Shown piece by piece: positions 4,546-55,915 of a DNA stretch of 57,418 nt (position 1 is the stretch's first letter; each line of letters begins with the position of its first letter). Origin of the DNA: a virus; the IMG/VR virus record IMGVR_UViG_3300029319_008709, positions 1,127 to 58,544 of that record. The stretch is one strand, 5' to 3'. Below the pieces are notes generated by a model. The model had not been told where the DNA came from and ran no database searches. It was given only the letters and a program-made list of their open reading frames with translations. Position numbers and translations under genes: made by a program.

Positions 4546-4585
4546 ACTATTGTCCTCTTCATATAAATAGTGTTAAATTCTGTTA

Positions 4586-34545: not shown

Positions 34546-34546
34546 A

Positions 34547-35210: not shown

Positions 35211-35596
35211 TGTCTCTCTAAAATTCTAGTGGTAGAGTAGCCGTCAATGAAGTTAAATATTCTCACCTCTGCAAGATCACTCCCTACAACGCGATCAGCT
35301 ACATAGTCCCCACCTTTGACTATAATATCAGGAGAGATACTCTTTATTAAGTTATAAGGTGTATTTTCATTAAACACTATAACTTCATCAACATATCTAC
35401 AAGACATTAAAGCAAAAATTCTATCTTCTTGCTTAAAGAAAGGGCGAGAAGGTCCCTTAAGGTCAGTCACGCTTGAATCGCTGTTCAGCCCCACTATCAC
35501 CCTTCCCAAAGATGAGCAATATCTTAGAAGCTCATAATGCCCTCTGTGAAGAATATCGAAACATCCGTTTGTGAATATTGTCCTAGTAATTTGCAT
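35207..35596 (-). CDS. hldC: HldE C-terminal-type sugar nucleotidyltransferase
   Basis: The 129-residue protein has the RfaE domain II signature: FTNGCFDILHRGHYELL (residues 8-24, with the HxGH nucleotide site), SVTDLKGPSRPF, KGGDY (94-98) and GYSTTRI at the end. In bacteria this domain adenylylates D-glycero-beta-D-manno-heptose 1-phosphate; the sugar kinase domain is usually fused to it in HldE. Here the kinase is a separate gene (36793). The gene overlaps the upstream SDR by 14 bases and is followed by the HAD phosphatase. ADP-heptose-like sugar is the best guess; another nucleotide-activated phosphosugar is possible. Confidence 0.85.
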   Translation of the reverse strand: MQITRTIFTNGCFDILHRGHYELLRYCSSLGRVIVGLNSDSSVTDLKGPSRPFFKQEDRIFALMSCRYVDEVIVFNENTPYNLIKSISPDIIVKGGDYVADRVVGSDLAEVRIFNFIDGYSTTRILERQ

Positions 35597-36509
35597 ACCA
35601 AGGGCTGTCTATTAAAGAGTAGGCTTTTATAAGTTGCTTAATACTCGTATCTAGATCATACAGGCATTCAAATCCCTTATCATAAATTTTCTGGCTACTG
35701 ACATTGTAGTCCCTAACATCTGGATCTTTCGTGAACTCTGCCTTGATAATTTCAAGCGGAAGATACTCGCCTATCTTTTCAGCTAATTGCAGCTTGTTCA
35801 TGTTCATCTCATCATGTCCAAGATTATAAGTTTCGTTTCTGCAGTCTTCCCAATTGTCTAGTAAAAACTTAAATGATCTACAGACGTCCCATATGTGAAC
35901 ATAATTTCTCATAAATTCGCATTCATACAACACTATGACACGATCTCTTAATGCCCTCAAGACAAAATTGTTTACGAGGAGATCCGTCCTCATCCTGCCC
36001 GAAGGACCACAGACTGTTGCAAGTCTAAACGTTGCACAATTTTCTGTTTCTCTAAAGATTGTCTCGGCCTCAACCTTGGTTTTGCCATAAAGCGAAACAG
36101 GATTTAGAGGAGACTCTTCTGTTACTACAGATCCATCAATACTCTTTCCATACCCTGAATTGGTGCATGGATATAACACAATCTGATCTAAGGATTTATT
36201 TTCGGCTAACCAACGATTGGCATTAAGATTTGTCTGTGTTGCTTCAACTGGCTTTCGATCGCACAAAGGAAATCCTACAAGAGCAGCTAACGGTATCACA
36301 ACATCATGGCTTGCAAGTAGCTTTTTATAAAGCGACGTATCTCTAACGTCTCCCTTGATAAAATTGAATTTATCGTTCTGAACATATCGTAGCAAGGAAT
36401 CATGCCCATACATTAAATTATCTAAAACTGTTACTTCATGTTGAGGCAGTAAAAATTGTACCAGCTCGCTACCGATATATCCTGCGCCTCCTGTAATCAA
36501 AATTTTCAT
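35583..36509 (-). CDS. NAD-dependent sugar epimerase/dehydratase (SDR, WcaG-like)
   Basis: The enzyme of about 308 residues is an extended SDR with GGAGYIG at the start of the Rossmann fold, IPLAALVG, PCTNSGYGKS and YGKTK as the catalytic Tyr-x3-Lys. I start at ATG 36509 rather than eight codons earlier; it has AGGGAGA upstream and an ATGA overlap with the DUF962 gene. It sits inside the HldE-like kinase/adenylyltransferase group, so an ADP-heptose epimerase-like step is one option, but it lacks the characteristic HldD sequence that I know. Its exact substrate cannot be read; UDP- or dTDP-sugar epimerisation remains possible. Confidence 0.82.
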   Translation of the reverse strand: MKILITGGAGYIGSELVQFLLPQHEVTVLDNLMYGHDSLLRYVQNDKFNFIKGDVRDTSLYKKLLASHDVVIPLAALVGFPLCDRKPVEATQTNLNANRWLAENKSLDQIVLYPCTNSGYGKSIDGSVVTEESPLNPVSLYGKTKVEAETIFRETENCATFRLATVCGPSGRMRTDLLVNNFVLRALRDRVIVLYECEFMRNYVHIWDVCRSFKFLLDNWEDCRNETYNLGHDEMNMNKLQLAEKIGEYLPLEIIKAEFTKDPDVRDYNVSSQKIYDKGFECLYDLDTSIKQLIKAYSLIDSPWYANY

Positions 36510-36796
36510 CGCTCTACTCTCCCTAGAATCCAATCTTTTAACATAATCCAGTCAGCCATTTTTGCAAATACGGGGTTGCTAAATGCGGCGGGCTTGTTTT
36601 TCTCATAAAAATAATGCCCTGACCACGCAAAAGGATAAACAACAAATGGCGAAAATACAATAAGAATTAACGGCAGCTTTGTCAAACATAGTATAACATA
36701 TAATATTGTAGATACCTGCCCCAAGACATGCAATCTTCTGTTTACTTTGTTCTGGTGCAGTGACAAATAGTGCTGGTAATACCGACTAAACGTCAT
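36506..36796 (-). CDS. Mpo1/DUF962-like membrane protein
   Basis: The 96-residue product, started at ATG 36796 in an ATGA overlap, has the DUF962/Mpo1 pattern: YYQHYLSLHQNKVNRRLHVL (residues 6-25) with His14 and His23, two hydrophobic helices, then FAWSGHYFYEKNKPAAFSNP with His61. The conserved His pattern is that of Mpo1-like iron-dependent enzymes, which in yeast oxidise 2-hydroxy fatty acids. It is roughly half the usual length. An earlier in-frame start at 36838 exists but would read back through the kinase stop. It is embedded in the sugar-kinase group, so it may alter lipid A or another lipid anchor of the glycan; this is inference. Confidence 0.72.
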   Translation of the reverse strand: MTFSRYYQHYLSLHQNKVNRRLHVLGQVSTILYVILCLTKLPLILIVFSPFVVYPFAWSGHYFYEKNKPAAFSNPVFAKMADWIMLKDWILGRVER

Positions 36797-37557
36797 AGCG
36801 TGCTTACGCCCCTCTGCTGTACAACCTTTGTTGCACATTCATTTGCATATTCAATGCTGATTTTAATATTGTTTGTTTCAATATATTTATGTACTAGTCC
36901 AGCTAAAAATGAATCTCCAGCACCAGTTAGATCCTTAACTTCAACTCTTTTCACTGGGTATGTGCCCTCTTTATACCTGCACCCTTTAGAACCTAGGGTT
37001 ACGATTAGGCTTTCTTGAATCCAATCTTGTAAATTCTCCAAAAGATGTTTACTTCTTTCATACTCGTATTCATTAACTTTAATAAATTTACAGTTTCGAG
37101 CGTATGAGCCGAGCAACTTTTTAGTATCCAAAAATACCATATCATGATTGCTAGATATAAATTCTATATCTTTTTCTGATAAGAAACCTTTATTGTAATC
37201 GGAAATTATGATGGCATCAAACTGTTTGATGTAGTTAACCCACTTCTGCCTGTCCTTTATTCTTTCGAAGATACGCTCGTCGCTCACGTCTCCCTTATCT
37301 AGACGCATAATCATGTGATTATTCTTATGCTCAACAAATCTAGTTTTTACAATTTTAGAAGCGTCATTGCATACAAGTTCGCATTCAAGTCCTAAGCTTA
37401 ATATATTTTCGTAAACATTCCCTGCCATTCCAAGATTAGTTTTGCGATGCACAGGAATAAAAACCGGAACAGGAGCAGCAGGGCAAAGCCTATCACACTT
37501 TCCATAAACATAAACATCAGTGCAGCCATCACCTACTACTAGAATCTTTACTCCCAA
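36793..37557 (-). CDS. hldA: PfkB-family sugar kinase, HldE N-terminal-like
   Basis: The protein of about 254 residues is a ribokinase/PfkB kinase with the ATP/anion-hole motif TGAGDSFLAGL (Asp215 acting as base) and N-terminal ILVVGDGCTDVYVYG. It phosphorylates a sugar phosphate, most likely the heptose step that in HldE is fused to the adenylyltransferase found at 35207. The start is uncertain: TTG at 37557 has GGGAG five bases upstream and is preferred over a TTG four codons earlier (37569). Family members usually start near the IL-VVGD strand. Its 3' end is ATGA-coupled to the DUF962 gene. Confidence 0.82.
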   Translation of the reverse strand: MGVKILVVGDGCTDVYVYGKCDRLCPAAPVPVFIPVHRKTNLGMAGNVYENILSLGLECELVCNDASKIVKTRFVEHKNNHMIMRLDKGDVSDERIFERIKDRQKWVNYIKQFDAIIISDYNKGFLSEKDIEFISSNHDMVFLDTKKLLGSYARNCKFIKVNEYEYERSKHLLENLQDWIQESLIVTLGSKGCRYKEGTYPVKRVEVKDLTGAGDSFLAGLVHKYIETNNIKISIEYANECATKVVQQRGVSTL

Positions 37558-37949
37558 CTGATCTCCCAATCTTTAAATTCAGCCGCAAGACAATCAATCT
37601 TGTAGTCTTTTCTGCCGCCAACAACTTCTTGAATTTTGTTTTTGGCGGTGTTTCGAATGCCATTTAATCCATGCGTTAATTCTAGATTATTTCCGTCTTT
37701 AATACCTTTACGATAATTTGATTCATTGTGCCAAATATGAAGATTCATTTGCGAAAGAACTACGATTGCTCGCAGAGTTTCAGCATCAACCTTCGCATCA
37801 GCTAGCAATAAATCAATATCATGTAAGATATCCTTTATCTCTTGGGCATATTCGTCTCTGTGTTCTGATATGAAAACCTCTTTTAGTTGGGCTATCGATA
37901 GCCGATCAATTAGTTCCGACAGAGTTGGTAAATATTTACGATTTGACAT
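37548..37949 (-). CDS. Hypothetical protein opening a glycan sub-operon
   Basis: The 133-residue protein has no recognised motif beyond an N-terminal LPTLSELIDRLSIAQLKEVF, which looks like a helical interaction segment, and an acidic middle. Its 5' end is the only gene start in this cluster preceded by a real gap (64 bases), which contains a candidate promoter. The gene overlaps the kinase by a few bases. It could be a regulator or partner of the sugar-activation group. A ribosome-binding site AAAGGTGAT lies upstream of the ATG. Confidence 0.6.
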   Translation of the reverse strand: MSNRKYLPTLSELIDRLSIAQLKEVFISEHRDEYAQEIKDILHDIDLLLADAKVDAETLRAIVVLSQMNLHIWHNESNYRKGIKDGNNLELTHGLNGIRNTAKNKIQEVVGGRKDYKIDCLAAEFKDWEISWE

Positions 37950-39904: not shown

Positions 39905-40899
39905 GCACTTTCCTTAACTTGTTTTGAAATCCATTCGTAGGTCCTGCTCATGCCTTCTCGCAACGGCTCAGAAACCTTCCATCCAATCATCTCTTCATAA
40001 AGGTTGTTATCTGAATTTCTACCATGTACGCCCAGAGGCCCATCAATATTTTTAATGCCCAGTTCTTTTCCTGATAGATTGATCACCAAGCGAGCAAAGT
40101 TTTGAATGGTTATCATCTCTTCAGATCCAATATTTACTGGTCCCTCAAAATCAGACTGCATTAGGCGTCGAGTGGCTTCTATGCACTCGTCTATATAAAG
40201 GAATGATCGTGTTCGGCTTCCATCGCCCCAGACCTCAATCTCGCCACCATTATTAGCTTCGGCAACTTTTCTGCAAAAAGCTGCTGGAGCTTTTTCTCTG
40301 CCACCTTGCCATGTTCCCTCTGGTCCATAAATGTTATGATATCTAGCAATTCGAACATTTAGCCCGTGGTTACGAGCAAAAGCTAGATATAAACGCTCAC
40401 TAAATAGCTTTTCCCATCCATATTCTGAATCAGGTGCAGCTGGATAAGCGCTATCCTCTGAGCACTTAGGGTTGTCTGGATCTAACTGGTTGTATTCTGG
40501 ATACATACAAGCTGAGGAAGAGTAAAATACTTTTCCTACTTTTTGCTTTGTAGCATACTCAGCAACGAGAAGATTTATTAAAGCTGAATTGTGCATAATG
40601 TCTGCGTCATTCTCGCCAGTAAAGATAAAGCCGGCGCCGCCCATATCGGCAGCAAACTGATAAACTTCATCAGCAGCCGTATAAACTGGATAATCCTCTA
40701 CGGGACATAGAAATATTTTTCGAACAACTTCTGGATCTCTTAGGTCGCCTTGAACAAAATCATCGCAAACTTCTGTAATATCAAAAAAATCATGGCGCTT
40801 GATATCTACGCCGCGGACCCAATAGCCTTCACTTTTAAGTCTTTTGCACATCGCGCCACCGATGAATCCTCCCGCGCCTAAAACAACTGCTGTTTTCAT
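39901..40899 (-). CDS. gme: GDP-mannose 3,5-epimerase
   Basis: The 332-residue SDR is strikingly like plant-type GME: FAADMGGAGFIF, IMHNSALINL, YSSSACMYPEYNQL, DSEYGWEKL, RYHNIYGPEGTWQGGREKAP and RSFLYIDECI, then GPLGVHGRNSDN near the end. The four catalytic residues of Arabidopsis GME (Cys145, Tyr174, Lys178, Lys217) map to Cys131, Tyr160, Lys164 and Lys203, all with the same offset of 14. It should convert GDP-mannose to GDP-L-galactose and GDP-L-gulose. It is ATGA-coupled to the upstream dehydrogenase. ManC or another GDP-mannose source is not seen here. This enzyme is best known from plant ascorbate synthesis, so its use in a phage glycan locus is notable. Confidence 0.88.
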   Translation of the reverse strand: MKTAVVLGAGGFIGGAMCKRLKSEGYWVRGVDIKRHDFFDITEVCDDFVQGDLRDPEVVRKIFLCPVEDYPVYTAADEVYQFAADMGGAGFIFTGENDADIMHNSALINLLVAEYATKQKVGKVFYSSSACMYPEYNQLDPDNPKCSEDSAYPAAPDSEYGWEKLFSERLYLAFARNHGLNVRIARYHNIYGPEGTWQGGREKAPAAFCRKVAEANNGGEIEVWGDGSRTRSFLYIDECIEATRRLMQSDFEGPVNIGSEEMITIQNFARLVINLSGKELGIKNIDGPLGVHGRNSDNNLYEEMIGWKVSEPLREGMSRTYEWISKQVKESA

Positions 40900-41999
40900 T
40901 TTCTCTCCTCATATTTAAAAAGTTCACCATATATCTCACGTACTTGACTAATCGTGTCAGGATGCTCTTTGATAGTGACATCGTATCCTGCTTCTGCAAT
41001 CCCAACTGCAAAAGCAAGTTGTTGTGATTCTTCGATAATAGTCGTTCCCGGCTTATAAGTCACTGTGTCAAATTCTACAGGTTCTTGCGGTCTATGCTGC
41101 GACGTGAAGTTTGAGATTTGAAAATTTAGGTGTTTCTTATTAATGCTATCTGTTGCCGCGCTAATATCGGAGGGCATCTCAATATCATCCGCATAGATAC
41201 CCAGCGCCCGGTTGTCTCTCGGGAAGCATGGACCACCATATCCATAGCCGTATCCAAGATATCGTGTTCCAATTCTAGAGTCGCTGCCAATAGCTGATAA
41301 GACTGTATGGGGATCGCCTCCAGATCTAATCACAATATCCCCAACCATGTTGGCAAAGGAAATTTTTGTTGTTACAAAGCAATTCAGAGCGATTTTGCAA
41401 ATCTCGGCTTCAGTTCTCGTCATGCGGCAAATACGGGGCTCATTAGCAGTGTGATTTTCATAGATGTCCTGAAGTGTGTCTCCGATTTCTTTAGAGCCCT
41501 CGCCAATGAGCACCATATCTGGTCTTGCTTGATCTCTCAAAATTGTCCCCTGTGCGATAAATTCTGGGTTATAGCTAACTGTATAGTTATAGTCTTCAAG
41601 GCGCTGCTGCACAGTATCGCAGTAACCCGGCATTGTGGTGCAACATATTACTAAGTGTTTTTGCACTTGCTGGACTCCGAAAGTCTTTAATGTCTGGACT
41701 AAGCTATCAACTTGCGAATGATCATATCTTCCATTCTCCAGCGACGGAGTAGCAACCACTGCAAACAACACATCGGAATGATTAAGAACCTCGTCCATAT
41801 GCACAGTAGCTTTAAAGTTGACAGCATCGCTAAGCATATCTTCAACACCCTGCTCTGGGCTTTTAAGAGTCTTTTGATTGATCTGGCTTACGTGCTCGGC
41901 ATTAATATCGCATCCCACAACATCATATCCTGCTCTCTCCAAGGTTAAGGAAAAACACAGTCCAAGTCTGCCGACTCCAATTACAGATATTTTCTTCAC
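40896..41999 (-). CDS. Nucleotide-sugar 6-dehydrogenase (UDP-glucose/GDP-mannose type)
   Basis: This NAD-dependent oxidase would make a uronic acid nucleotide (UDP-glucuronate or GDP-mannuronate). It has GVGRLG (8-13) at the NAD site, SYNPEFIAQGTILRDQARPD, and the catalytic Cys258 in YGGPCFPRDNRAL. The C-terminal UDP-binding part is somewhat shortened. I start at GTG 41999, placed after a GGAGAATAGA site, rather than at the TTG four codons earlier. The gene is coupled to the NAD synthetase stop by a TAGAGTG junction and is followed by GME in an ATGA overlap. Substrate choice between UDP-Glc and GDP-Man is not settled. Confidence 0.85.
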   Translation of the reverse strand: MKKISVIGVGRLGLCFSLTLERAGYDVVGCDINAEHVSQINQKTLKSPEQGVEDMLSDAVNFKATVHMDEVLNHSDVLFAVVATPSLENGRYDHSQVDSLVQTLKTFGVQQVQKHLVICCTTMPGYCDTVQQRLEDYNYTVSYNPEFIAQGTILRDQARPDMVLIGEGSKEIGDTLQDIYENHTANEPRICRMTRTEAEICKIALNCFVTTKISFANMVGDIVIRSGGDPHTVLSAIGSDSRIGTRYLGYGYGYGGPCFPRDNRALGIYADDIEMPSDISAATDSINKKHLNFQISNFTSQHRPQEPVEFDTVTYKPGTTIIEESQQLAFAVGIAEAGYDVTIKEHPDTISQVREIYGELFKYEERK

Positions 42000-42000
42000 T

Positions 42001-42765
42001 CTATTCTCCAATCTTGTATACAGGAATACTCTTCATCTTGTGGGCATTCGATTGATTAAATTTATTGTATATAATAATAACTTCTTTTTGTCGATCAGTT
42101 AAGGAATAAGCTTGATTTTCCTCAATATATTTCATCGCCCATTCTAGCTCCTCATAAGACGCTCCAATTTGGTCCTCATCTGATCGAGCATCCTCCCAGA
42201 GCCCATCTGTTGGTGGCGCTTCTATAATCTCTCTAGAGATTCCTAAATGATCGGCAAGCTGCCTCACTTGCGTCTTTGTAAGATCTGCAATCGGAGAAAT
42301 GTCAACACCTCCATCACCATACTTGGTAAAGAAGCCTACTCCAAAATCTTCAATTTTATTTCCAGTCCCAACAACCAAGCCGCCCGAAGATGCTGCTAGT
42401 TGATATAAGGCCACCATACGCAATCGAGATTTGCTGTTAGCAAATCCTAAATCACTCTTATAATCTCCCACAACTTTTTTAAAAGCGGAGTAAACAGCAT
42501 CCAAGCAAATAATATCTGTGGTAACATTGTTAAACTTGTTTGTAAGCCATTCTAAATGCAAATTGGAAAGATCTGTATTTGTCTGTTCTGAGTTAAGCGG
42601 AAGATTAACGGCGACTGTTGTAACCCCTGTCATGGCGCATAAGGTAGACACCACAGCGGAGTCAATGCCCCCAGAAACGCCTACTACAAAAGTTTTTAAG
42701 CCACTCTTCTCCAAATATTCCCTAAGCCATGCTGATATGTCTTGCTGAAGTCTGTTAGTTTCCAT
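42001..42765 (-). CDS. nadE: NAD synthetase (ammonia-dependent NadE type)
   Basis: The 254-residue enzyme has the PP-loop SGGIDS (31-36), GTGNKIEDFGVGFFTKYGDG and the NadE motif EAPPTDGLWEDARSDEDQIG, all typical of ammonia-dependent NAD synthetases. It lacks a glutaminase domain. It would adenylate deamido-NAD and transfer ammonia to make NAD, or carry out an analogous amidation. I start at ATG 42765 (GGAGAAAAATA upstream, TAATG overlap with the methyltransferase) rather than the longer frame from 42816. It lies among NAD-using sugar dehydrogenases and epimerases, so cofactor supply is the simplest reading. A sugar-acid amidation role is possible because an uronate-forming enzyme is next to it. 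Confidence 0.85.
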   Translation of the reverse strand: METNRLQQDISAWLREYLEKSGLKTFVVGVSGGIDSAVVSTLCAMTGVTTVAVNLPLNSEQTNTDLSNLHLEWLTNKFNNVTTDIICLDAVYSAFKKVVGDYKSDLGFANSKSRLRMVALYQLAASSGGLVVGTGNKIEDFGVGFFTKYGDGGVDISPIADLTKTQVRQLADHLGISREIIEAPPTDGLWEDARSDEDQIGASYEELEWAMKYIEENQAYSLTDRQKEVIIIYNKFNQSNAHKMKSIPVYKIGE

Positions 42766-43613
42766 TATTTTTCTCCTCTTCCAATTATCATCGTATGCCA
42801 CCCCATCTCTTCGCATAAAGAATTATAATCTTGGCTTGACATATTTTTAAAACAATCTCTCACAACGTATTTTTTTTCAATATATGAAGGTATATCGTAT
42901 TTGAAAATATGATCTTTCCAAATAGAATCAACCTGTATCTGTCTGGACGACAAGATATCTTTAATTTCTTTAAAAGTGTATGTTACAGCTCTGGGGCACC
43001 CTACTTGGGCTTCAGCAAACTTTTGTATGACATCATCGCTTTTAGAAAAATCCCATATGTTTTCTAAGTGCATAAAATCAAAAAGCTTGAAGCTGTACTT
43101 TGAATATAACATGCATCGAAACTGCCCCTTATTTTTTAGCAACGTGCTTACATTATCAAATATCTTTTCAGGATGCTCTGCGTGGTGTATTACACCAAAA
43201 GAGTAAATTAAATCATATCCCTCTTCGACCTCTTCTTTAGGCAAAAAGTCAAACATATTTTCTGCATTTCCTAAGTGAAAATTTGCGCTTAAACCAAATT
43301 TTTCAAATCTCTGCTTAGCTATATTTAAGCTTTCTTCAGAAAGTTCTATACAGGTTAAGTTAGCGCCATAGCGAGCAAAATTCACACTATCGGTTCCAAT
43401 CCCGCAGCCAATTTCTAAAACTTTCTTGCCTTTCCATCTAGAGAAGTCTGCAAAGGGGGGTATATGAGGTTCTACAAAATATTTTCTTTTCTCTACTTCG
43501 TCAAAGTATTCTACTGTGCCTACTTCTTTATTGGAGTGCCTAATGTTGCACGGGCGACGATTCCAATAATCTTGTATTTCTTCAGTTAAAGCAGAGTTAA
43601 TTTTCTTTTTCAT
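42765..43613 (-). CDS. Class I SAM-dependent methyltransferase
   Basis: The protein of about 282 residues has SAM motif [13 protein letters not shown] (65-76), an acidic residue after strand two (CIELSEES), and [19 protein letters not shown] as motif post-II. It is of the class I type found in O-antigen and capsule loci, where it methylates a sugar hydroxyl or a nucleotide-linked sugar. I prefer ATG 43613, ATGA-coupled to the GT11 gene, over ATG 43625. The N-terminal region with [18 protein letters not shown] may be the acceptor-binding part. Substrate is unknown. Confidence 0.82.
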
Positions 43614-44485
43614 AATTTTTTCCATTCTTGCGGGTGAAAAGCCTCTCTAATCAGTTCTCTTTCGTCTAAGAAATAATACTTTGGAGCACACACAATTTTT
43701 TCTCTATTTTCATTAAGATAAGCAGCCCACCAGCCAAAAGACGTGCCATGACATGTAATATTGTGATCACAGTTTTTTATCATCGCGAAGTCTTGAAGTG
43801 TGCTATTTCCTTCGGAAAATACATATTCCTCGCCTTTGAAGACCTTCTTGCACCACTGGATATCTAGGGTATTGTTATTTCCCAGCCTACTACCACCCGA
43901 AAAAACAAGAAATTTTACTCTCTTATTACGAAACTGTTTTTTGGCTAACTCAAGGTAAGATCCAAAAATACTATTCTTATCAAAATTGTTGTTGTGACCC
44001 AAATAATTTATTTGTTCACCAGTTGTTCCATCTGTCAGGTCGCCTCTTCGAAGGTGTAAGCTAACTAATTCACATTTATGATCTTTTTTAATTTGTGAGA
44101 TTTTTGCTTTTGCTTCGTTTTCTATTTCTTTCTTTATAGTAAATTCTCTTCTGATCTGATCCTCATGAGATTCAAAATATTTAGTGCTCTGAAAAAACCC
44201 TGAGATGTTTGTATTGTCTGGTAAATTGATAATATTTGTGTCGTAACGATTGATATTGGGCTCGTTATAAGCATATTGAATAGAGTTGACATCTGACCGA
44301 TTCAAATAATCGCACTCTAGTGAAAAACTTTCTAGTAAGCATTTTTGCCCATGCCATTCGCACTCTGAAGGGTTGGGTATTTTAACCTCATATCCCTTAG
44401 TAAGTCCTAAAGATTTTAAAGCGGCGTATTGAAAAAGCTGATTTCCCAATCTACCCAATCGTCCCAACTGAATGAAAGTTAGCAC
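43610..44485 (-). CDS. GT11-type alpha-1,2-fucosyltransferase
   Basis: The 291-residue protein has the GT11 signatures [17 protein letters not shown] (11-27), [13 protein letters not shown] (near 141-153) and [15 protein letters not shown] (motif III). GT11 enzymes transfer L-fucose (or a related L-sugar) from the GDP donor in alpha-1,2 linkage to galactose. This agrees with the fucose-synthase-like and GME genes in the same cluster, as both can supply GDP-L-sugars. The start is GTG 44485 after a TAGA junction. There is no signal peptide, so it acts in the cytoplasm, probably on a lipid-linked or soluble glycan. Confidence 0.88.
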
Positions 44486-44486
44486 T

Positions 44487-45578
44487 CTATTTTCTCCAGT
44501 CGTTCAGGGTAGCTACTATATGATCTCGGTGTTGGGCAGTTAACCACCAACCAACCGGGATGTTCAAAAGGCTAGAGCAAAAATAATCACATCCCTTAAG
44601 GTTTTCAGATCTGTACTCTTTAAAAACAGAATACTTATCGTTCCTGACATGGACCACATCACTGGCGATCCCGTGCTCTGCTAGATACTGCTTAAGTTCT
44701 TGTGGACTGTCCACTAAGACCGAATAGATCCAGTATGCTGATTCTTTGTCGCTATCCTTTCGTAATTTTTTAATGTAGGGGTTATTAATTTCCCGATCAT
44801 AAAATATTCCATTACTAATGTGAGAGCCGATAATCTTTTCTAGGTGTGGCATCTGTGATAAGCCAATCGTAGCATTTATGTTATTCATGTGAAACTTATA
44901 GCCAGCTCGGTCTATATCCTGCTCCCATTTGCTTCCTTTATATTTCCTATCAAGCCCAAACCAGCGAAGCTTTCGAATTAAGTTGGCATCTTTAGTATTA
45001 TTGGCAAATATGGCCCCGCCATCTCCCGTTGTTAAGTGTTTAATTGCTTGAAAGGAAAAACAAACATAATCACTGTGGTTTCCAATATATTCTCCCTTAT
45101 ATTTTGAACCTAAAGCGTGTGCCGCATCTTCAATCACTTTTAAGCCATTCTCTTTTGCTATTTGACCAATTCCGTCAATATCAAACGGTAGTCCACTCCA
45201 GTGAACTCCAACAATAGCTACAGTTTTACTAGTTATTTTGTTTTTAACAGATTGTGGATCTATATTTCCTGTTTCTGGATCGACGTCAGCCCACACAATT
45301 TTTGCACCCATTTGGTGGATTGGCTCATTTGTAGCCATGCACGTCATAGGAGTAGAGATTACCTCTGTGTCTGGTCCAACACCCGACATGTCGTAAGCAA
45401 GTGTCAGAGCACTAGTGCAACTGTTTACTAAACAGCAATCATCATTGCCTATAAAATTTCCAAACATTTCCTCAAATCTATCCGACTTATCACCCTCGGT
45501 AATAAATCCAGATTGAAATGTTTCTTCAAGTGCTTTGCCTAAGTTTTCTGGTGTATGTACTTTAAATAATGGAATCAT
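44487..45578 (-). CDS. DegT/DnrJ/EryC1 sugar aminotransferase
   Basis: The 363-residue PLP enzyme has the DegT/DnrJ/EryC1 fold: VNSCTSALTL near 51-60 for PLP phosphate binding, VIEDAAHALGSKYKGE (Asp151 ring contact) and CFSFQAIKHLTTGDGG with the Schiff-base Lys180. It would transfer an amine to a 4- or 3-keto-6-deoxy nucleotide sugar, likely the RmlB product dTDP-4-keto-6-deoxyglucose. RmlC directly precedes it in transcription order. Its start overlaps the RmlC stop (ATGA). The formyltransferase just upstream and the acetyltransferase at 48794 could acylate the resulting amino group. Position on the ring is not known. Confidence 0.9.
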   Translation of the reverse strand: MIPLFKVHTPENLGKALEETFQSGFITEGDKSDRFEEMFGNFIGNDDCCLVNSCTSALTLAYDMSGVGPDTEVISTPMTCMATNEPIHQMGAKIVWADVDPETGNIDPQSVKNKITSKTVAIVGVHWSGLPFDIDGIGQIAKENGLKVIEDAAHALGSKYKGEYIGNHSDYVCFSFQAIKHLTTGDGGAIFANNTKDANLIRKLRWFGLDRKYKGSKWEQDIDRAGYKFHMNNINATIGLSQMPHLEKIIGSHISNGIFYDREINNPYIKKLRKDSDKESAYWIYSVLVDSPQELKQYLAEHGIASDVVHVRNDKYSVFKEYRSENLKGCDYFCSSLLNIPVGWWLTAQHRDHIVATLNDWRK

Positions 45579-46144
45579 GTGTTATCTCGCTTTTGAAATT
45601 TAAAATTGTTTATCGCCTTTCGCAAAGGTGGAGCGTTTCTGTCTTTTTGAGAAACAATGGGATTGCTAACTGACCAATCTATTCCAATATCTGGATCATC
45701 CCAAGCAAATGCTCTATCTAAAGACGAATCATAAAACTGGTCGATCTTATATGTTACGACCGTATTTGGAGCCAAAGTACACAAGCCATGTGCAAAGCCT
45801 GCAGGAATTAAAAGCTGTCTTTGATTTTGACTTGTCAAAATTGCTCCGACATACTGACCATAGGTAGGGGACCCGACCCTAATGTCCACTGCCACATCGT
45901 AAATTGCGCCGTGTAGAACCTTAACTAACTTTGTCATTGGTTTAGGGTTTAATTGATAGTGCAACCCTCGTACTGTACCTGCATGTAGGGAAAGCGACTG
46001 GTTGTCTTGGACAAAATTATAATCTAAGCCTAGATCTTTAAGTTTTTCCTTGTGATATGTCTCAACAAAATAACCACGATCATCGCTATGAACCGTAGGC
46101 TTAATTATCAAAACACCGTCAATTGATGTGTTAATAATTTTCAT
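45575..46144 (-). CDS. rmlC: dTDP-4-dehydrorhamnose 3,5-epimerase (RmlC)-like
   Basis: The cupin enzyme has the RmlC pattern HSDDRGYFVETY, GTVRGLHYQLNP (His62), AVDIRVGSPTYG and IPAGFAHG (His119). It can epimerise the RmlB product at C3 and C5, toward dTDP-L-rhamnose or an L-amino sugar. I start at ATG 46144, with AGGA six bases upstream, rather than TTG at 46150; the product has 189 residues. It is expressed just after the formyltransferase and just before the DegT gene. RmlD was not found, and the neighbouring DegT suggests the epimer may be aminated rather than reduced. Confidence 0.88.
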   Translation of the reverse strand: MKIINTSIDGVLIIKPTVHSDDRGYFVETYHKEKLKDLGLDYNFVQDNQSLSLHAGTVRGLHYQLNPKPMTKLVKVLHGAIYDVAVDIRVGSPTYGQYVGAILTSQNQRQLLIPAGFAHGLCTLAPNTVVTYKIDQFYDSSLDRAFAWDDPDIGIDWSVSNPIVSQKDRNAPPLRKAINNFKFQKRDNT

Positions 46145-46718
46145 TCTCAATCCTCTCTTTATACTTGGTAAATGAGGGTGACAATTTGTGAGTCCTCCTG
46201 TACATCGTAGGAGTCTGCTTAAAACAGTTCATCATTTCTTTTTTAGACAAGCTACCAAGCAGATCTAAGGCTGCACACACAAAGGGAGGCGCAACATAAA
46301 GTTGACGTTCATACAGGGACAACGGGGTATCTTTTTCAAAAACTGGATATGTTACTTTGCTTATAATCGGACCATGGTCATATTGGTCTGTCATTTTATG
46401 AAACGTTAATCCTTGTTGGTATTCTTTATTTTTGATTGTGTGAGCAAATATATCCCTTCCCCCATATTCTGGAAGGAGACCTGTATGCATGTTGTAGGCG
46501 TTATCAATATCAAGTATTTTTTTATTATACTGGAGTGATAATTTAATATCGTGTTCTACAGTGGTACTAACTTGTGGGATGGGCATTTTTCCTTCTATCG
46601 TTGGCCTATGCGAAGGGATATACCCCACTAACTGATAATTGCTATGGGCTAATAAATAATCACATATAACTTGAGAAAAATGTGAAGATCCATAAATTAA
46701 AACTTTATCTATTTTCAC
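46131..46718 (-). CDS. Sugar N-formyltransferase
   Basis: This 195-residue protein has the formyltransferase catalytic set: NMHTGLLPEYGG (Asn76, His78) and GLTFHKMTDQYDHGPIIS (Asp114). The N-terminal Rossmann part starts KIDKVLIYGSSHFSQ. Such folate-dependent enzymes formylate the amino group of dTDP-Qui4N, dTDP-Fuc3N or similar sugars in O-antigen pathways. The two DegT genes, RmlB and RmlC nearby supply suitable precursors. The start is GTG 46718, preceded by GGGAGGATAC, a strong ribosome-binding site. It lacks an obvious C-terminal ankyrin or other extension, so it is a minimal form. Confidence 0.85.
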   Translation of the reverse strand: MKIDKVLIYGSSHFSQVICDYLLAHSNYQLVGYIPSHRPTIEGKMPIPQVSTTVEHDIKLSLQYNKKILDIDNAYNMHTGLLPEYGGRDIFAHTIKNKEYQQGLTFHKMTDQYDHGPIISKVTYPVFEKDTPLSLYERQLYVAPPFVCAALDLLGSLSKKEMMNCFKQTPTMYRRTHKLSPSFTKYKERIENENY

Positions 46719-47367
46719 TGTAGTATCCTCCCACTACCATCGGGATGCCCTTGCTGGTAGATGTTTTGTGAAAGTCAGGATCATAATATTTTTTGGGCAA
46801 TATGCGAAAATCCATGCTCACCCTCGTGTTGCCTGTATCGTTTAATTTATTTCCATGAGTACAAGTATTTCCATTAAAAACTGCAAATTGACCCTTACAC
46901 ATATTCATTGGATGATAGTCTCCCAAGCCGGGTACAGACTCGATCCATATTGCACTACTATCTTTCATATCTGTAAGGGCTAAGACAATATTAATTTCTC
47001 CCAATTGGTGGTTGTAATCATAATCGCGGTGATATTCGCCAACAGATTTATTATTAGGAACCTGAACTCGAAACGTGGGCTTAGCCTGAAATACAAAATC
47101 AGAATGACCCATAACTGAAACAACTGTATCTGATATAAAATTATTGTACATCATCTCGAATTCTTTCCAGCCTTTGTTTAGCTTATGATAAAAAACTTTA
47201 TGGAACCACGTTTCATTATCATTTTCAAAATTTACAATTCCATAAGACTCTTCAGGAGGAAGCACCAAGTGAAGTTGCTCTAACGAATTAGCTCCCTCAA
47301 AGAGTCTTAAGATCATTGAAGAAAAATTGTATTTTTCATGATCGTAATTTTTAATAACTTCCGGCAC
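46705..47367 (-). CDS. 2-oxoglutarate/Fe(II) oxygenase, StrG/PhyH-like
   Basis: The 220-residue protein shows the 2OG-Fe(II) facial triad: YHRDYDYNH (His113, Asp115), CTHGNKLNDTG (His171) and RVSMDFR (Arg182 for 2-oxoglutarate). It is similar to small hydroxylases in antibiotic-sugar and capsule loci, such as StrG. It would hydroxylate or desaturate a sugar, lipid or other acceptor. The start is GTG 47367. It overlaps the formyltransferase gene by 14 bases and follows the GT at 47369. Nothing in the sequence tells the substrate. Confidence 0.78.
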   Translation of the reverse strand: MPEVIKNYDHEKYNFSSMILRLFEGANSLEQLHLVLPPEESYGIVNFENDNETWFHKVFYHKLNKGWKEFEMMYNNFISDTVVSVMGHSDFVFQAKPTFRVQVPNNKSVGEYHRDYDYNHQLGEINIVLALTDMKDSSAIWIESVPGLGDYHPMNMCKGQFAVFNGNTCTHGNKLNDTGNTRVSMDFRILPKKYYDPDFHKTSTSKGIPMVVGGYYSENR

Positions 47368-47368
47368 T

Positions 47369-48199
47369 CTATCTTACACCCATAAAAAAGTTTCGAATAA
47401 AATTGTCGTCCCTTAAAATGTACTGATACACAAGTTCAGACAAGCTACCATTAAAATTTGGTATACTAGGATACCTTAAATCAAGATCACAGTATTTGAT
47501 GTCTAACTCATCAGTATCGTTCAGTCCCGTTCGACTCCAAACATCAAAAGAATCGTAAACATTGGGATTACCGCTAGAAGATCCATGATGGTATACTAAA
47601 TCACCGTAGACACCAAAGAACAATGGGTGGACATCTACCTTGTTGCTTCTATACAATCCTCTTGTTGTGTATCCATTTTCCTCAAGCCAAAACTTCAATA
47701 ACGGTCCATAAGCTAAAACACCCTTCTGTACATCTCTTTCCCAACTTAGATTATTATCAAGCCAAAATTTAGCTTTAGCGGCGACAAACAATAAGTGAGG
47801 ATATGGCTTATGGTCGTCTGGCAGTAACGGTTCTAGGTTCTCTGTTCTGTAAACACAGGACAAAGCATTGTCCACCAAATGGGAGCGGACTTGCTCATCC
47901 CAATCCGCTATTGGAAAAGCATCCCCATCTAAAAATAGGAGAATATCATCCTCATGTATTTCTTCTCTATCTTTAATCATTTCTGTCAGGTAGTTCATCT
48001 TGACACCATGATCGTTTTTAACTCCAGAAAGATCAAAGAAATAATGTTTTGTAAAATATTGTTTTTCTCCATGAGTTTTTGACACTTCTGAAAGACCGCA
48101 ATACACCTTATAGTCTGTCCCTGTGTACTTCTGAAGATATTTTGCTTGCAGGTTTAGAAACCTATCATGCTTGTGGTGGTTTGTGATTACATATATCAT
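47369..48199 (-). CDS. Glycosyltransferase, GT-A fold
   Basis: This 276-residue protein starts MIYVITNHHKHDRFLNLQ and contains ILLFLDGDAFPIADWD, a GT-A DxD (about residues 91-93) that binds the metal and nucleotide. It continues with LLKFWLEENGYTTRGL and VYHHGSSSG, a late His that often completes the metal site in GT-A enzymes. It is likely a single-domain cytoplasmic transferase, with no membrane segment. It starts in an ATGA overlap with the short DegT gene, so the amino sugar produced there may be its donor. Family number and sugar are not known. Confidence 0.75.
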   Translation of the reverse strand: MIYVITNHHKHDRFLNLQAKYLQKYTGTDYKVYCGLSEVSKTHGEKQYFTKHYFFDLSGVKNDHGVKMNYLTEMIKDREEIHEDDILLFLDGDAFPIADWDEQVRSHLVDNALSCVYRTENLEPLLPDDHKPYPHLLFVAAKAKFWLDNNLSWERDVQKGVLAYGPLLKFWLEENGYTTRGLYRSNKVDVHPLFFGVYGDLVYHHGSSSGNPNVYDSFDVWSRTGLNDTDELDIKYCDLDLRYPSIPNFNGSLSELVYQYILRDDNFIRNFFMGVR

Positions 48200-48813
48200 T
48201 TCGAGTTGCCTTTGTCTTTAAATAACGTAAATTCTGTAAGATCGCGGTATGGAGGATCTTCTGGTATGTCTGGTACATGTTCAGGGTAATTCTGCATAAG
48301 CATAAGACCTCTAACAGCCTGCTCAGGAGTCATATACATGTTCCATCCCATGGAATCAATATCGTCGTCCTGATATCTAATTCCCTCACTCCTGCCTTCA
48401 TATCGTGCTTCTCGCACCCAATCAACAAGCTCTTTATTATCAGTAAGGATCATACCGCCTTTTCCAATTTTAAGATGCTTTTTAATGTGAAAAGATAAAC
48501 ACATATGAGATCCCGGGATGTACATGCCAGAAGTTAGACGCTTCGCAGCATCCCAAATAGGATAGGGTTTTAACTGATATGCCCCCTGCCACTTGACGTC
48601 CTCAAAATGAACTGTTCCGCCGGCCTGTATAATTGACTGTGGCACAGATAGATATGTTCGTCTTGGTATCGTAACATCTTTTACACCGAAATATTCACAG
48701 CATAAAAAAATAGCATTTGTGCAATTGTTTACAGAGACAGCATAAGGGGCACCAGTATAGTCTGCCATCTCCTCTTCAAACATTTTTACAATTTTATATG
48801 GATTGTGTCTCAT
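48196..48813 (-). CDS. Compact DegT-type PLP aminotransferase
   Basis: The 205-residue protein has recognisable DegT core motifs: VNNCTNAIFL near residue 28 (PLP phosphate), YPIWDAAKR with the Asp88 ring contact, and LSFHIKKHLKIGKGGMI with Lys112 as the likely Schiff base. Full DegT enzymes have about 360-400 residues, so the C-terminal small domain is mostly missing, and the large domain also looks shortened. It ends cleanly at an ATGA overlap, and both ends are coupled to neighbours, so it is not an obvious frameshift fragment. It may be a minimal enzyme, a partner of the full-length DegT at 44487, or a decayed but translated copy. Confidence 0.7.
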   Translation of the reverse strand: MRHNPYKIVKMFEEEMADYTGAPYAVSVNNCTNAIFLCCEYFGVKDVTIPRRTYLSVPQSIIQAGGTVHFEDVKWQGAYQLKPYPIWDAAKRLTSGMYIPGSHMCLSFHIKKHLKIGKGGMILTDNKELVDWVREARYEGRSEGIRYQDDDIDSMGWNMYMTPEQAVRGLMLMQNYPEHVPDIPEDPPYRDLTEFTLFKDKGNSK

Positions 48814-49204
48814 TATTTTTTTCCAATATGTAATATTGCTTTATAAATCCGCATTTTTCAAACAATTTTAAGCTAGCTTTGTTTTCCACTTTAACTTTCG
48901 CATATGCCTGTGGGTCGAGCTTCATTATATTTTCTATCATGAAGGCTCCTACACCTTGCCCTTGGAAATCCGGATGGGTCGCGACTCTGATATCGTGATT
49001 GATTACGCCAACGTATCCTGCAGGAGTGCCTTCCACAGTACAAATATAATACAAATGACCGTACTTTTTCATATATATTTTATGATTGTCGGGTTCAATG
49101 TGCTCTTGTTGAATAAAACCCTGCCTTACGCCATCCATATTTCTTAATTGTCGGATGAATTCCCAATAATCTTCTCTATTCTTAACAAAAAGTTTTAGCC
49201 CCAT
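48794..49204 (-). CDS. GNAT-family N-acetyltransferase
   Basis: The 136-residue protein has GNAT motif A, RVATHPDFQGQGVGAFMI (residues about 73-90), binding acetyl-CoA through QGQGVG, and motif B, VENKASLKLFEKCGF. GNAT enzymes in capsule loci acetylate amino sugars, so it may act on the amine introduced by the adjacent DegT enzyme, as an alternative to formylation. It overlaps the upstream and downstream genes by 10 and 20 bases. Protein or other small-molecule acetylation cannot be excluded. Confidence 0.82.
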   Translation of the reverse strand: MGLKLFVKNREDYWEFIRQLRNMDGVRQGFIQQEHIEPDNHKIYMKKYGHLYYICTVEGTPAGYVGVINHDIRVATHPDFQGQGVGAFMIENIMKLDPQAYAKVKVENKASLKLFEKCGFIKQYYILEKNNETQSI

Positions 49205-52600: not shown

Positions 52601-53874
52601 TCGAATTCCAAAACCAACTCGTTACTTTCCTTTTCTTCTAATGTCTCAATCGAGGACGAATCAAACCCTAGCACAGAATCAACAAATTGTTTGTGAATCT
52701 TATCGTGAGAAAATTTATCTAAAATATACTTTTGAAGAGATTTAGCCTTCTCACGGAAATGTTTTTCTTTATCTAAACTTTCCTGTAGAGCGCGTTTAAA
52801 GGATGACTCTTTTGCATATGCCCACTTAGCATCCTCAACAATAACATTGTTCCAAACAACTTCTTTCTGAACTTGTCTGATGTCATAGTCCACAGGTATC
52901 ACCATAGGCACCAGCTTTCCCTTCTTGTTTGGTTTGCAAATAAAGTCCATCTGTCCGGACCATGTGACTGTGATTAGCGGTAGTCCATGACATGCAGCCT
53001 CGAATAAGGGAAGCCCAAACCCCTCGCCGTGACCAATATTGATTAAGGCTTTCATTGTTGGGTGCTCATATAGCCATGCTAGACCGCCCGCGGGCAGCTC
53101 TCCATGAATTAAATAAACTGAGCACTTACGCTCACCTAGTGAATCTAATAGAATCTGCAGTCTATTTTGAGTAAACTCTCTATCCATTACAGTGTCTGAG
53201 GCTGTATTCGTTTTTACAACAAGCCCAACATCAGGATCATCTTTAAACTTTTCTACAAACCATTTAATGGTGTTTTCCAAGTTCTTTCGGGCGCCCCATT
53301 GAGAAATGGTAATAAAATTCTTGCTAGTCTTAAAATCAATATTAATTTCATTGGGCTCCGATACACGGACAGGATAGTTGATAGACTCCACAGGGACTTG
53401 AAGACCCCAACCTTTGTGTTCATTACCGGCCTGATCACGAAGATCATACTTCGTCTGTTCAAAAACCTTTTTTCCGTGCTCTGATACGGTAATAACTTTA
53501 TTAACTGCTTCGTTTGCTTTCGCAATCCACTCAGGCGCTACTTTTGTGGTTTCAATGCCAGCCGTATACCCAATGTTGATGGGTGCGATGGCTTCAAATT
53601 CGTTTGGTATTGTAACTTGTATCGATATGTCGAAAGCTGGTTGATTGTTGTTTTGCTGAATATGTATCGCGGTTCTATGCAGCGCTTCCCTTATGTAGTT
53701 TGTCTCTTCAGTAACTTCTGACTGCTGTCCTGTTCTCCCCCAAGGAATGTTCACTAGGTGAATATCAAATAAATCCTCGCGGGACCGGAGAGCCTTAAGA
53801 ATACATCTCGCCTGCTCGCCATAACCAGACCTAGATAACACAGGACCCTTAATTAAAACCTTTTTCTTAAACAT
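52597..53874 (-). CDS. GT4-family glycosyltransferase
   Basis: The 425-residue GT-B protein has an N-terminal acceptor domain and a C-terminal GT4 donor domain with EGFGLPLFEAACHGLPLITV, the E-x7-E signature at about 283-291. An unusual N-terminus begins FKKKVLIKGPVLSRSGYGEQ. The protein has no membrane helix and probably works on a cytoplasmic acceptor. It starts in a TAATG overlap with the upstream GT4 gene, so the two may be sequential enzymes. The sugar donor cannot be read from the sequence. The C-terminal tail ends in an acidic run with EEKESNELVLEFE. Confidence 0.85.
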   Translation of the reverse strand: MFKKKVLIKGPVLSRSGYGEQARCILKALRSREDLFDIHLVNIPWGRTGQQSEVTEETNYIREALHRTAIHIQQNNNQPAFDISIQVTIPNEFEAIAPINIGYTAGIETTKVAPEWIAKANEAVNKVITVSEHGKKVFEQTKYDLRDQAGNEHKGWGLQVPVESINYPVRVSEPNEINIDFKTSKNFITISQWGARKNLENTIKWFVEKFKDDPDVGLVVKTNTASDTVMDREFTQNRLQILLDSLGERKCSVYLIHGELPAGGLAWLYEHPTMKALINIGHGEGFGLPLFEAACHGLPLITVTWSGQMDFICKPNKKGKLVPMVIPVDYDIRQVQKEVVWNNVIVEDAKWAYAKESSFKRALQESLDKEKHFREKAKSLQKYILDKFSHDKIHKQFVDSVLGFDSSSIETLEEKESNELVLEFE

Positions 53875-55124
53875 TAGTATACCTTCACTTCGTATGATTC
53901 ATAGCCCTTACGATCTTCCCAAGAGCCTTTTTCTTCGTAAATTGACATAAATAAATCATCCCATGTTTGAATAAACTTATCAAAACTAAAGCGATCTTCT
54001 GTCCAAGCACGACCTGCCATGCCAAGTTCTCCTCTATCTTCAGGAGTCATTTCGTAAAGTTCCGTCAGGGCATTAATAAAATCATCTTTATTTAGACGAT
54101 CTTCGTAGATATACGGAACCTGTTGAGATCCAATAATTGCTTTTGAAGTGGGTTGCAAACCTATTCCAAAGAACTTTTCACCATCTGTTACCTGATCTTG
54201 GAGACCTCCTGTCATATTGACTAAAATAGGCGTTCCGCAAGATAGTGATTCTAAGGTTGAAAGACCAAATCCTTCTGCATCAGAAATACAAATAGTAAGA
54301 TCTGCCATATTGTACATCCCAGCAAGATCTGCAGCATCAACTTTATCTCTGGAGAATAATACCTGTCCATCAGTTAAACCTAACTCATGTATAATCGCTT
54401 CTAGATCCTGTCCATGCTGATCCTTTACATCTGTATGCATAATAAGACACGCATTGTCGTGACCAACCTTATCCAAGAAGTCCTTGAACCACCATATCAA
54501 TGTCCCAGATTGTTTACGTCGAGCGTTGCGGCTATTCCAAAAGCACACAAATTTATCATCTAAATTCTTAGACATTCTCCACGCCTTAACTTCGTCTGCG
54601 GTATGGGGCTTAAAAATATCTCCATCAACAGCATGCGGGATATAAGAGGAATCAACCTCTGGCGCCACGGTCTGAACTATGTCGTGCGTTACCTTAGAAA
54701 TGCAGGCAACATGATCATTGGAAAGATAAAACTTGCGATTAAACTTAGGGTATGGATAATTGTCCCAAACGTGGTAATAAACCATCGGAACGTGGGCTCT
54801 GATTTCATTCTCAACAGCCCACAGCCAATCATAGAACCTTGGGTCTGTCATAAACCAAACTATGTCTGGCTTTTGCTGGTGTATCATGGCGCGCACCATA
54901 TCCTGATTGCCGTAGCCATCTACAGGCCAAATAATCCAATCATCTCCCCATTGCTCAGTTCTTTGGGGCTGGTGATCTGGGTGCTTAATAGCCCCTCCAA
55001 ATGATACAAACTGATACTTACCAGTTTTCAACATCCCTTGGATAATATATTTTGTTTGAGTTCCGACACCACTCGGAGACAGCGGATGATCGCTGATGGT
55101 GAAAATCTTAATCTTATCTGACAT
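53874..55124 (-). CDS. GT4-family glycosyltransferase
   Basis: This 416-residue GT-B protein opens with IFTISDHPLSPSGVGTQTKY (the GxGT loop of GT4 enzymes). Its second domain carries FVCFWNSRNARRKQS and SDAEGFGLSTLESLSCGTP with the E-x7-E motif. It resembles large-phage and marine-bacterial GT4 proteins. It is the first gene transcribed in the glycan cluster. The ATG at 55124 is eight bases from the nuclease gene, with an AGG-type site overlapping the preceding stop. Donor and acceptor are unknown. Confidence 0.85.
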   Translation of the reverse strand: MSDKIKIFTISDHPLSPSGVGTQTKYIIQGMLKTGKYQFVSFGGAIKHPDHQPQRTEQWGDDWIIWPVDGYGNQDMVRAMIHQQKPDIVWFMTDPRFYDWLWAVENEIRAHVPMVYYHVWDNYPYPKFNRKFYLSNDHVACISKVTHDIVQTVAPEVDSSYIPHAVDGDIFKPHTADEVKAWRMSKNLDDKFVCFWNSRNARRKQSGTLIWWFKDFLDKVGHDNACLIMHTDVKDQHGQDLEAIIHELGLTDGQVLFSRDKVDAADLAGMYNMADLTICISDAEGFGLSTLESLSCGTPILVNMTGGLQDQVTDGEKFFGIGLQPTSKAIIGSQQVPYIYEDRLNKDDFINALTELYEMTPEDRGELGMAGRAWTEDRFSFDKFIQTWDDLFMSIYEEKGSWEDRKGYESYEVKVY

Positions 55125-55132
55125 TTAAGTTC

Positions 55133-55915
55133 CTATCTGCAGTGTTCAGTATTGCGCAACGAACAAGGAAACGGCTTGTGGCAATTAAGTCTGTTCTTAA
55201 TCGTGAAGCCTTTTTGGATATTGTATATTGCTTGGTATAAAAGTTTAAGAGCGTTCTCCGTTTTTCTGGGACCACTCGTTACCCTAAATATCTCCACTCT
55301 ATTCTTTTTGGCAGTTCTTTTTAGCAAAGCAAAGTGAGTTTCTACATCTTTAGGATCTAAATTATGCTTCTGACAGAAAAAATGCTTGTATAGAGTAAGC
55401 TGGTAAGTGACCATCTTTTCGGCCTTTTTGCGTGAGTCCCAGCCCCAAGAACAAGTCTTCCAATCAAAGATGTGATACTTATTACCTACCTTAACGACAG
55501 CATCTACAAAACCTTTAAAATGATATCCAAAGTTTTCTATTTCTTCGTATAGAAGCTCCTCAGAGGAATACACTTCATAATCTCCAAAGTAATCACCCAA
55601 AGCGTCCTCAACTTCAGCCAAGACTTCTGGTCCTGCTGTTCGCATTTGCTCAACGTTCTTCTGATTTACTTCGATATTTTTTTCCGCAAGTTTTTCTAAT
55701 TCCTTGTCAAAGCCGATCTGGAATACTTTTGCCTCATCAATATTCTCTCGCAGAAGCTTCTTCTCACAAACATCATGGATAGCTGTACCGAATGCAGTGT
55801 ACTCGTTGCCTTCGAATGAAGCAACCTTCTCAATCCAATTCTTCTTGTGGTAGTGCGGGCAGTGTGCCCAATCTTTTAGTTCGGAGTATGATATGTGTGT
55901 TTTCTTATTTTGCAT
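55133..55915 (-). CDS. Cas4/RecB-like PD-(D/E)XK nuclease
   Basis: The 260-residue protein is a PD-(D/E)XK nuclease of the Cas4/RecB type. It has TAFGTAIHDVCE (His47), FKGFVDAVVKVGNKYHIF with Asp138, DWKT with Asp151 and Lys153, and MVTYQLTLYKHFF with the family's Gln. Four cysteines fit a Cas4-like 4Fe-4S cluster: Cys19 near the N-terminus and Cys245, Cys251 and Cys259 at the end. Phage Cas4-like proteins are 5'-3' exonucleases linked to recombination or to defence escape. It overlaps the metalloprotease gene by 11 bases and stands just before the glycan cluster. Confidence 0.88.
   Translation of the reverse strand: MQNKKTHISYSELKDWAHCPHYHKKNWIEKVASFEGNEYTAFGTAIHDVCEKKLLRENIDEAKVFQIGFDKELEKLAEKNIEVNQKNVEQMRTAGPEVLAEVEDALGDYFGDYEVYSSEELLYEEIENFGYHFKGFVDAVVKVGNKYHIFDWKTCSWGWDSRKKAEKMVTYQLTLYKHFFCQKHNLDPKDVETHFALLKRTAKKNRVEIFRVTSGPRKTENALKLLYQAIYNIQKGFTIKNRLNCHKPFPCSLRNTEHCR

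Follow-up and report, generated by a model that had tools for sequence, protein, structure and literature searches.

A compact predicted sugar N-formyltransferase and its linkage to DegT aminotransferases in a large aquatic phage and other uncultured viruses

Do phages make N-formyl sugars? Such sugars are rare and are best known from bacterial O-antigens. The question is raised by a stretch of 57,418 nucleotides from a large aquatic phage (the window; positions 1,127 to 58,544 of IMG/VR virus record IMGVR_UViG_3300029319_008709, and most of that 62.6-kb record), which encodes within a glycan island a compact predicted sugar N-formyltransferase of 195 aa (here FT; 46131–46718, minus strand). 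From RmlC, a full-length and a short DegT aminotransferase, a formyltransferase and a GNAT enzyme, taken as one module, together with RmlB, a first-pass annotation had predicted an N-formylated or N-acetylated dideoxy-amino sugar. All of these genes are real and intact, with open frames on the minus strand and matches to Pfam or NCBIfam models. The prediction that FT transfers a formyl group onto a nucleotide-linked amino sugar is now well supported because its catalytic triad is intact, its modeled fold and profile ranking fit this role, and its linkage to DegT recurs in independent viral contigs; that the sugar is a thymidine diphosphate (dTDP)-hexose is likely only. We consider it probable that the island is a phage glycan cluster with two parallel N-acylated amino-sugar routes, one of them N-formyl by way of FT.

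The formyltransferase and its class

FT matches the Formyl_trans_N domain (PF00551) with 43.8 bits against a gathering threshold of 26.1. Its catalytic set N76-x-H78...D114, recognized in the first pass as intact, is invariant across 23 aligned relatives, as are G10-S11, D57, Q63-Y64, G80, L82-P83, G86-G87 and G116. The His-Asp spacing of 36 residues is also that of GART. An AlphaFold2 model of FT (pLDDT 94.6, pTM 0.90) had as top Foldseek matches ArnA, a dTDP-Qui3N formyltransferase, Fmt, WlaRD, FdtF and QdtF, and VIA-align returned Z scores of 15–20 across the whole formyltransferase superfamily; thus the fold by itself proves a formyltransferase and not its substrate class. When a profile built from eight FT relatives was compared with solved structures, sugar N-formyltransferases ranked first (QdtF 58.6, ArnA 54.6, WlaRD 53.2 and WbkC 48.4 bits), with PurN (46.3 bits) and Fmt (45.3 bits) below them.

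The first-pass annotation had named as fatal to its prediction the case that FT is a Met-tRNA or glycinamide ribonucleotide (GAR) formyltransferase, and this is not borne out. A phage purine or initiator-tRNA enzyme with no link to sugars would share the fold of FT, and cyanophage PurN genes are known (PMC10436341), but the NCBI PurN and fmt models fall far short of their cut-offs on FT (30.2 against 150.1 bits and 36 against 201.5 bits, respectively). FT also has GSS in place of the GNGTN-type loop of PurN, and it aligns only up to about residue 238 of the ~305-residue Fmt chains, ending where the Fmt C-terminal domain, which it lacks, would start. With the persistent DegT linkage added, we regard this alternative as scarcely credible.

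FT resembles the bacterial enzymes QdtF, FdtF, WlaRD, VioF, WbkC and the N-terminal domain of ArnA in its Formyl_trans_N core, its Asn-x-His...Asp set, its fold and the DegT and dehydratase genes alongside. It differs from bacterial sugar N-formyltransferases in size (195 aa against about 254–417), the shortfall being mainly ahead of the catalytic Asn, where FT has ~75 residues and they have ~100, and in having no C-terminal extension. Identity to these enzymes is about 18–23% in structural alignments, and FT occurs almost only in viral contigs.

Distribution of FT and its linkage to DegT

A single-sequence scan of IMG/VR with FT gave no matches; an alignment-based scan did find relatives. Seeding with FT only, and thus blind to DegT, returned 25 viral loci, which include two or more near-duplicate pairs. 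Among the 21 loci with full flanks, a full-length DegT gene lies within two genes of FT in 16 and within three genes in 20 (at three genes in L140, L143, L159 and L160; L-numbers are our labels for loci and contigs retrieved for comparison). As a baseline we took other viral glycan islands, retrieved by way of the short DegT: of their 1472 genes, two are full-length DegT genes. The resulting binomial value of 1e-32 disregards shared ancestry and means only that the linkage is far from chance. From the other side, a search starting from the full DegT retrieved 46 loci from IMG/VR, of which seven, on distinct contigs, hold an FT relative.

Besides DegT, the partners of FT usually include a 4,6-dehydratase or a UDP-glucuronate-decarboxylase-like enzyme. 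The partner short-chain dehydrogenase/reductase (SDR) carries the dehydratase signature STDEV[YF] in L140, L142, L143, L146, L154 and L160, and SSSE[VI]Y in L110, L152, L156, L157 and L159; the one tested of the latter five, from L156, has UDP-glucuronic acid decarboxylases as its nearest structures. Given these two SDR classes, the FT family may serve both hexose and pentose routes. In the window, and likewise in at least nine further loci, the gene for a 2-oxoglutarate (2OG)-Fe(II) oxygenase-like protein lies no more than three genes from FT. The window copy (220 aa; 46705–47367, minus strand) has an intact HxD...H set (H113, D115, H171), with HxD and H invariant in the family alignment. It shows resemblance to, and not membership of, TIGR04324 ('sporadic carbohydrate cluster'; 41.4 bits against a cut-off of 150), and no solved relative of its family was found by sequence.

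The DegT proteins of L140 (3485–5527), L143 (4553–6592) and L160 (4550–6592) have an additional N-terminal region of ~300 residues, which in L140 contains an FLDPDFF stretch and resembles a GT-A glycosyltransferase fused to the aminotransferase.

In searching 50,697 deposited phage records we found no true FT relative. Two matches there were rejected: the AG-341-P01 match is a cyanophage PurN, and that in Pseudomonas phage Y5 (OQ572407; L006) is an ArnA-type gene. The Y5 record is unverified and probably contaminated by bacterial DNA, since it appears to include a host arn operon, in which the ArnA-type gene lies. A scan of 84,980 species genomes, run on two short peptide patterns and therefore liable to miss distant cellular relatives, identified one FT relative, in a Paceibacterota metagenome-assembled genome, where an FT-GNAT fusion (L161, 6389–7513), followed by DegT, stands in a cell-surface glycan locus. 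Surveying 287 genomes of that phylum, we found FT in this genome and in none of the 286 others. Flavobacterium phage immuto, which has a related island, holds no relative of the window FT at our search threshold.

Lipopolysaccharide (LPS) gene clusters have been described in T4-like cyanophages (PMC3037559) and pelagimyophages (PMC7029224), and the main texts of both papers do not mention a formyltransferase. Like these islands and that of immuto, the window has a large cluster of glycosyltransferases and sugar enzymes. The open-licence literature that we searched contains no report of N-formyl sugars in phages; the nearest report for a mobile element concerns a haloarchaeal plasmid formyltransferase. 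The first-pass view that such a sugar is unexpected in a phage nevertheless needs qualifying, since some 20 contigs of uncultured viruses share the arrangement.

For the LPS gene clusters of large cyanophages the idea of 'stuffer' DNA has been raised (PMC3037559), and the island could likewise be decaying and non-functional. We think this very unlikely: every frame is open, the catalytic residues are invariant over divergent homologs, and the island order is shared in full by another phage contig (L137/L091), with identities of 64% for FT and 71% for DegT. Compared with phages at the nucleotide level, the region gave no match.

The predicted sugars

The full DegT (363 aa; 44487–45578, minus strand) belongs to the DegT/DnrJ/EryC1/StrS family (PF01041, 298.6 bits) and has EDAAH and SFQAIKH motifs, with its pyridoxal phosphate (PLP) lysine located in SFQAIKHLTTGDGG. 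Its nearest solved structures are AtmS13/CalS13, matched over the full length, followed by ArnB and PseC-like enzymes, and these relatives point to amination at C4. AtmS13 and CalS13 are actinobacterial natural-product enzymes for which we know of no formyltransferase partner. A C3-amino (Qui3N/Fuc3N) product was also considered and ranked lower, because no island protein scanned in this record, which is a fragment, matched a ketoisomerase of the FdtA/QdtA type (3,4-ketoisomerase).

RmlC (dTDP-4-keto-6-deoxyglucose 3,5-epimerase, 191 aa; 45575–46150, minus strand) scores 222.2 bits on TIGR01221 against a cut-off of 155.75, has the motifs RGLHYQ, KLV and AHG, and is also identified as such by its PDB matches. 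RmlB (33595–34605) lies on the minus strand downstream of the full DegT; its motifs (STDEVYG, YSASK) and the ten nearest structures listed for it, all dTDP-glucose 4,6-dehydratases, indicate a dTDP-glucose 4,6-dehydratase-like enzyme. On the basis of RmlB and RmlC, a dTDP-hexose is the likely substrate of the route through FT. The most likely product would be a dTDP-4-formamido-4,6-dideoxyhexose; which exact hexose this is, and with what stereochemistry, is a matter of prediction, and our best guess is that it is L-configured if RmlC participates.

Several observations weigh against this reading. RmlB is 10 kb away from the other genes and scores 317.7 bits on TIGR01181, below the equivalog cut-off of 365.1, and no RmlA is encoded within the 62.6-kb record. 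In L093 and L096, RmlC is accompanied by an RmlD-like gene; it may therefore serve rhamnose, which makes its step here uncertain. One of the 21 full-flank loci, L145, carries FT without a visible DegT, and five FT loci have a UDP-glucuronate decarboxylase-like SDR, so that the substrate of the family is not always a hexose. Finally, Fmt (Z 19.9), ArnA (19.0) and FdtF (18.5) come close together in the fold ranking, so that it cannot tell sugar formyltransferases and Fmt apart.

RmlC could thus stand outside the route and serve a separate rhamnose-type sugar, with DegT using the un-epimerised RmlB product to give a D-series 4-formamido-4,6-dideoxyglucose or -galactose. This fits the majority of FT and DegT loci, where the dehydratase is beside DegT and RmlC is lacking, and also the RmlC-RmlB-RmlD-like-DegT arrangement of L093 and L096. 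In the window and L137, however, the RmlC gene is flanked by FT and DegT, its ends overlapping theirs or nearly abutting them, and we identified none of the window island's genes as RmlD-like. We hold this alternative to be a serious one, if the less probable.

The formylated sugar could also be a 4-amino-4-deoxypentose made from UDP-glucuronate, which the nucleotide-sugar dehydrogenase of the window (UDP-glucose dehydrogenase-like; 40896–42011) would supply. In ArnA/ArnB, which formylate UDP-Ara4N, an aminotransferase and a formyltransferase likewise act on a nucleotide 4-amino sugar, and the five FT loci with the SSSE[VI]Y SDR, including the L156 copy nearest to decarboxylases, fit such a route. 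So does the closeness of the full DegT to AtmS13/CalS13, which we take to be aminopentose enzymes. ArnA, however, is a fusion of formyltransferase and decarboxylase, whereas the window has partners of the RmlB/RmlC type; the substrates of the adjacent RmlC are 4-keto-6-deoxyhexoses, and we identified no UXS-type decarboxylase among the window genes. For the window we therefore regard a pentose as unlikely and keep the dTDP-hexose as the preferred substrate.

The short DegT (205 aa; 48196–48813, minus strand) scores 81.4 bits on PF01041 and has the PLP lysine and aspartate of that domain. Asp88, the Schiff-base Lys112 and Gly119-Gly120 are kept in all 84 aligned copies (window included), and at least 587 confirmed relatives in IMG/VR make this a very large viral family. 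Its AlphaFold2 model (pLDDT 93.7) aligns over 198 of 205 residues, with Z 20, to full sugar aminotransferases (sugar transaminase/GDP-perosamine synthase), large parts of which are skipped. By sequence and model it is a predicted mini-aminotransferase, widespread in viruses. Among the genes directly adjoining 83 copies are 20 members of a hexapeptide-type cluster (its representative slightly under the Pfam threshold), 17 RmlB-like SDRs, 10 GNATs (upstream) and 4 members of a cluster with a formyltransferase-like representative. Both kinds of arrangement occur in L144, where DegT-FT-2OG is followed by a second formyltransferase, a short DegT and a GDP-mannose dehydratase. In the window, the GNAT (136 aa; 48794–49204, minus strand; PF00583 41.3 bits, with weak matches to PseH and RimI models) overlaps the start of the short DegT. 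Because of these neighbour patterns and the two modules of L144, it is probably the N-acetyl partner of the short DegT, in a module of its own apart from FT-RmlC-DegT. The grouping of all five enzymes into one module is thus probably wrong: the conserved pairs are FT with DegT, often joined by the 2OG oxygenase and a dehydratase, and an acyltransferase with the short DegT.

A virus-encoded precedent is the UDP-viosamine pathway of Mimivirus (R141, L136 and L142), in which a 4,6-dehydratase, a PLP aminotransferase and an N-acyltransferase give a 4-amino-4,6-dideoxyhexose (PMC9614988). It differs from the window in that it is N-acetyl rather than N-formyl and belongs to a giant amoebal virus rather than a phage.

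Intact genes, motifs, predicted folds and conserved linkage are what we established directly; from these we infer catalysis, nucleotide, ring position, stereochemistry and acceptor in the following scheme. In the first route, RmlB would form a nucleotide sugar of the 4-keto-6-deoxy type, most probably bound to dTDP and derived from dTDP-glucose that host RmlA supplies; RmlC would probably epimerise it at C3/C5. The full DegT would add an amino group at C4, and FT, through Asn76, His78 and Asp114, would pass a formyl group from N10-formyl-tetrahydrofolate to this amine, giving the dTDP-4-formamido-4,6-dideoxyhexose. Further tailoring of the sugar may fall to the adjacent 2OG-Fe(II) oxygenase. 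In the second route, the short DegT would form another amino sugar and the overlapping GNAT would acetylate it. Glycosyltransferases of the island would then place both sugars onto a virion or host-surface glycan.

The glycan island and its meaning

The island runs on the minus strand from about 55 to 33.5 kb of the window; 1–30 kb are filled by baseplate-like proteins, whose nearest annotated relatives are distant T4-type wedge proteins. In the direction of transcription the order is GNAT, short DegT, a 276-aa protein with a DxD stretch, 2OG oxygenase-like protein, FT, RmlC, full DegT and, directly downstream, a GT11-family glycosyltransferase (43610–44485; PF01531 83.7 bits). All frames from GNAT to full DegT are open, and adjacent genes abut or overlap, as in an operon. 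The first-pass annotation, which covered 44487–48813, overlooked the oxygenase and the DxD protein and named a GNAT that lies just beyond this interval. The DxD protein (47369–48199) has zero Pfam or NCBIfam matches and a 403-bit relative in L137/L091; its FLDGDAF stretch makes it a putative GT-A glycosyltransferase.

A PD-(D/E)XK nuclease followed by two glycosyltransferases (53874–55915) forms the upstream edge of the island. The immuto island, in which a short DegT is followed by a PglD-like protein, starts after the same three genes, as do several IMG/VR contigs, marking a conserved site for variable glycan genes. Between methyltransferase and UDP-glucose dehydrogenase-like genes the island carries NadE (NAD+ synthase; 42001–42816), with a possible role in NAD supply or counter-defence. 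A split HldE-like kinase (36793–37569) and nucleotidyltransferase (35207–35596), with a small HAD-like protein (all within 34884–37569), suggest heptose-type sugar activation, and an Mpo1-like (DUF962) protein of a lipid dioxygenase family is encoded at 36506–36838. Just beyond the window end, unknown bases interrupt a PhoH gene (L005, about 4546–4557), where the source record has a scaffold gap.

What appears to be new here is a compact, largely viral FT family with a near-constant link to DegT. Members of the family are encoded next to a sugar aminotransferase in roughly two dozen uncultured viruses, a pattern suggesting that unusual formylated sugars are made by phages for the phage surface or that of the host. 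We lean towards the view that these largely virus-borne compact sugar N-formyltransferases, with DegT and a sporadic-cluster-type 2OG oxygenase, let aquatic phages build formamido sugars, and that many such islands also have a 205-residue mini-aminotransferase making N-acetyl or N-formyl amino sugars. The small enzymes (195 and 205 aa) are suited to asking how minimal a formyltransferase or aminotransferase fold can be for catalysis. If our reading is true, phage glycans would contain N-formyl sugars, used perhaps for virion disguise or for remodelling the host surface against superinfection, and a compact FT family nearly confined to phage contigs would point to phages as makers of N-formyl sugars.

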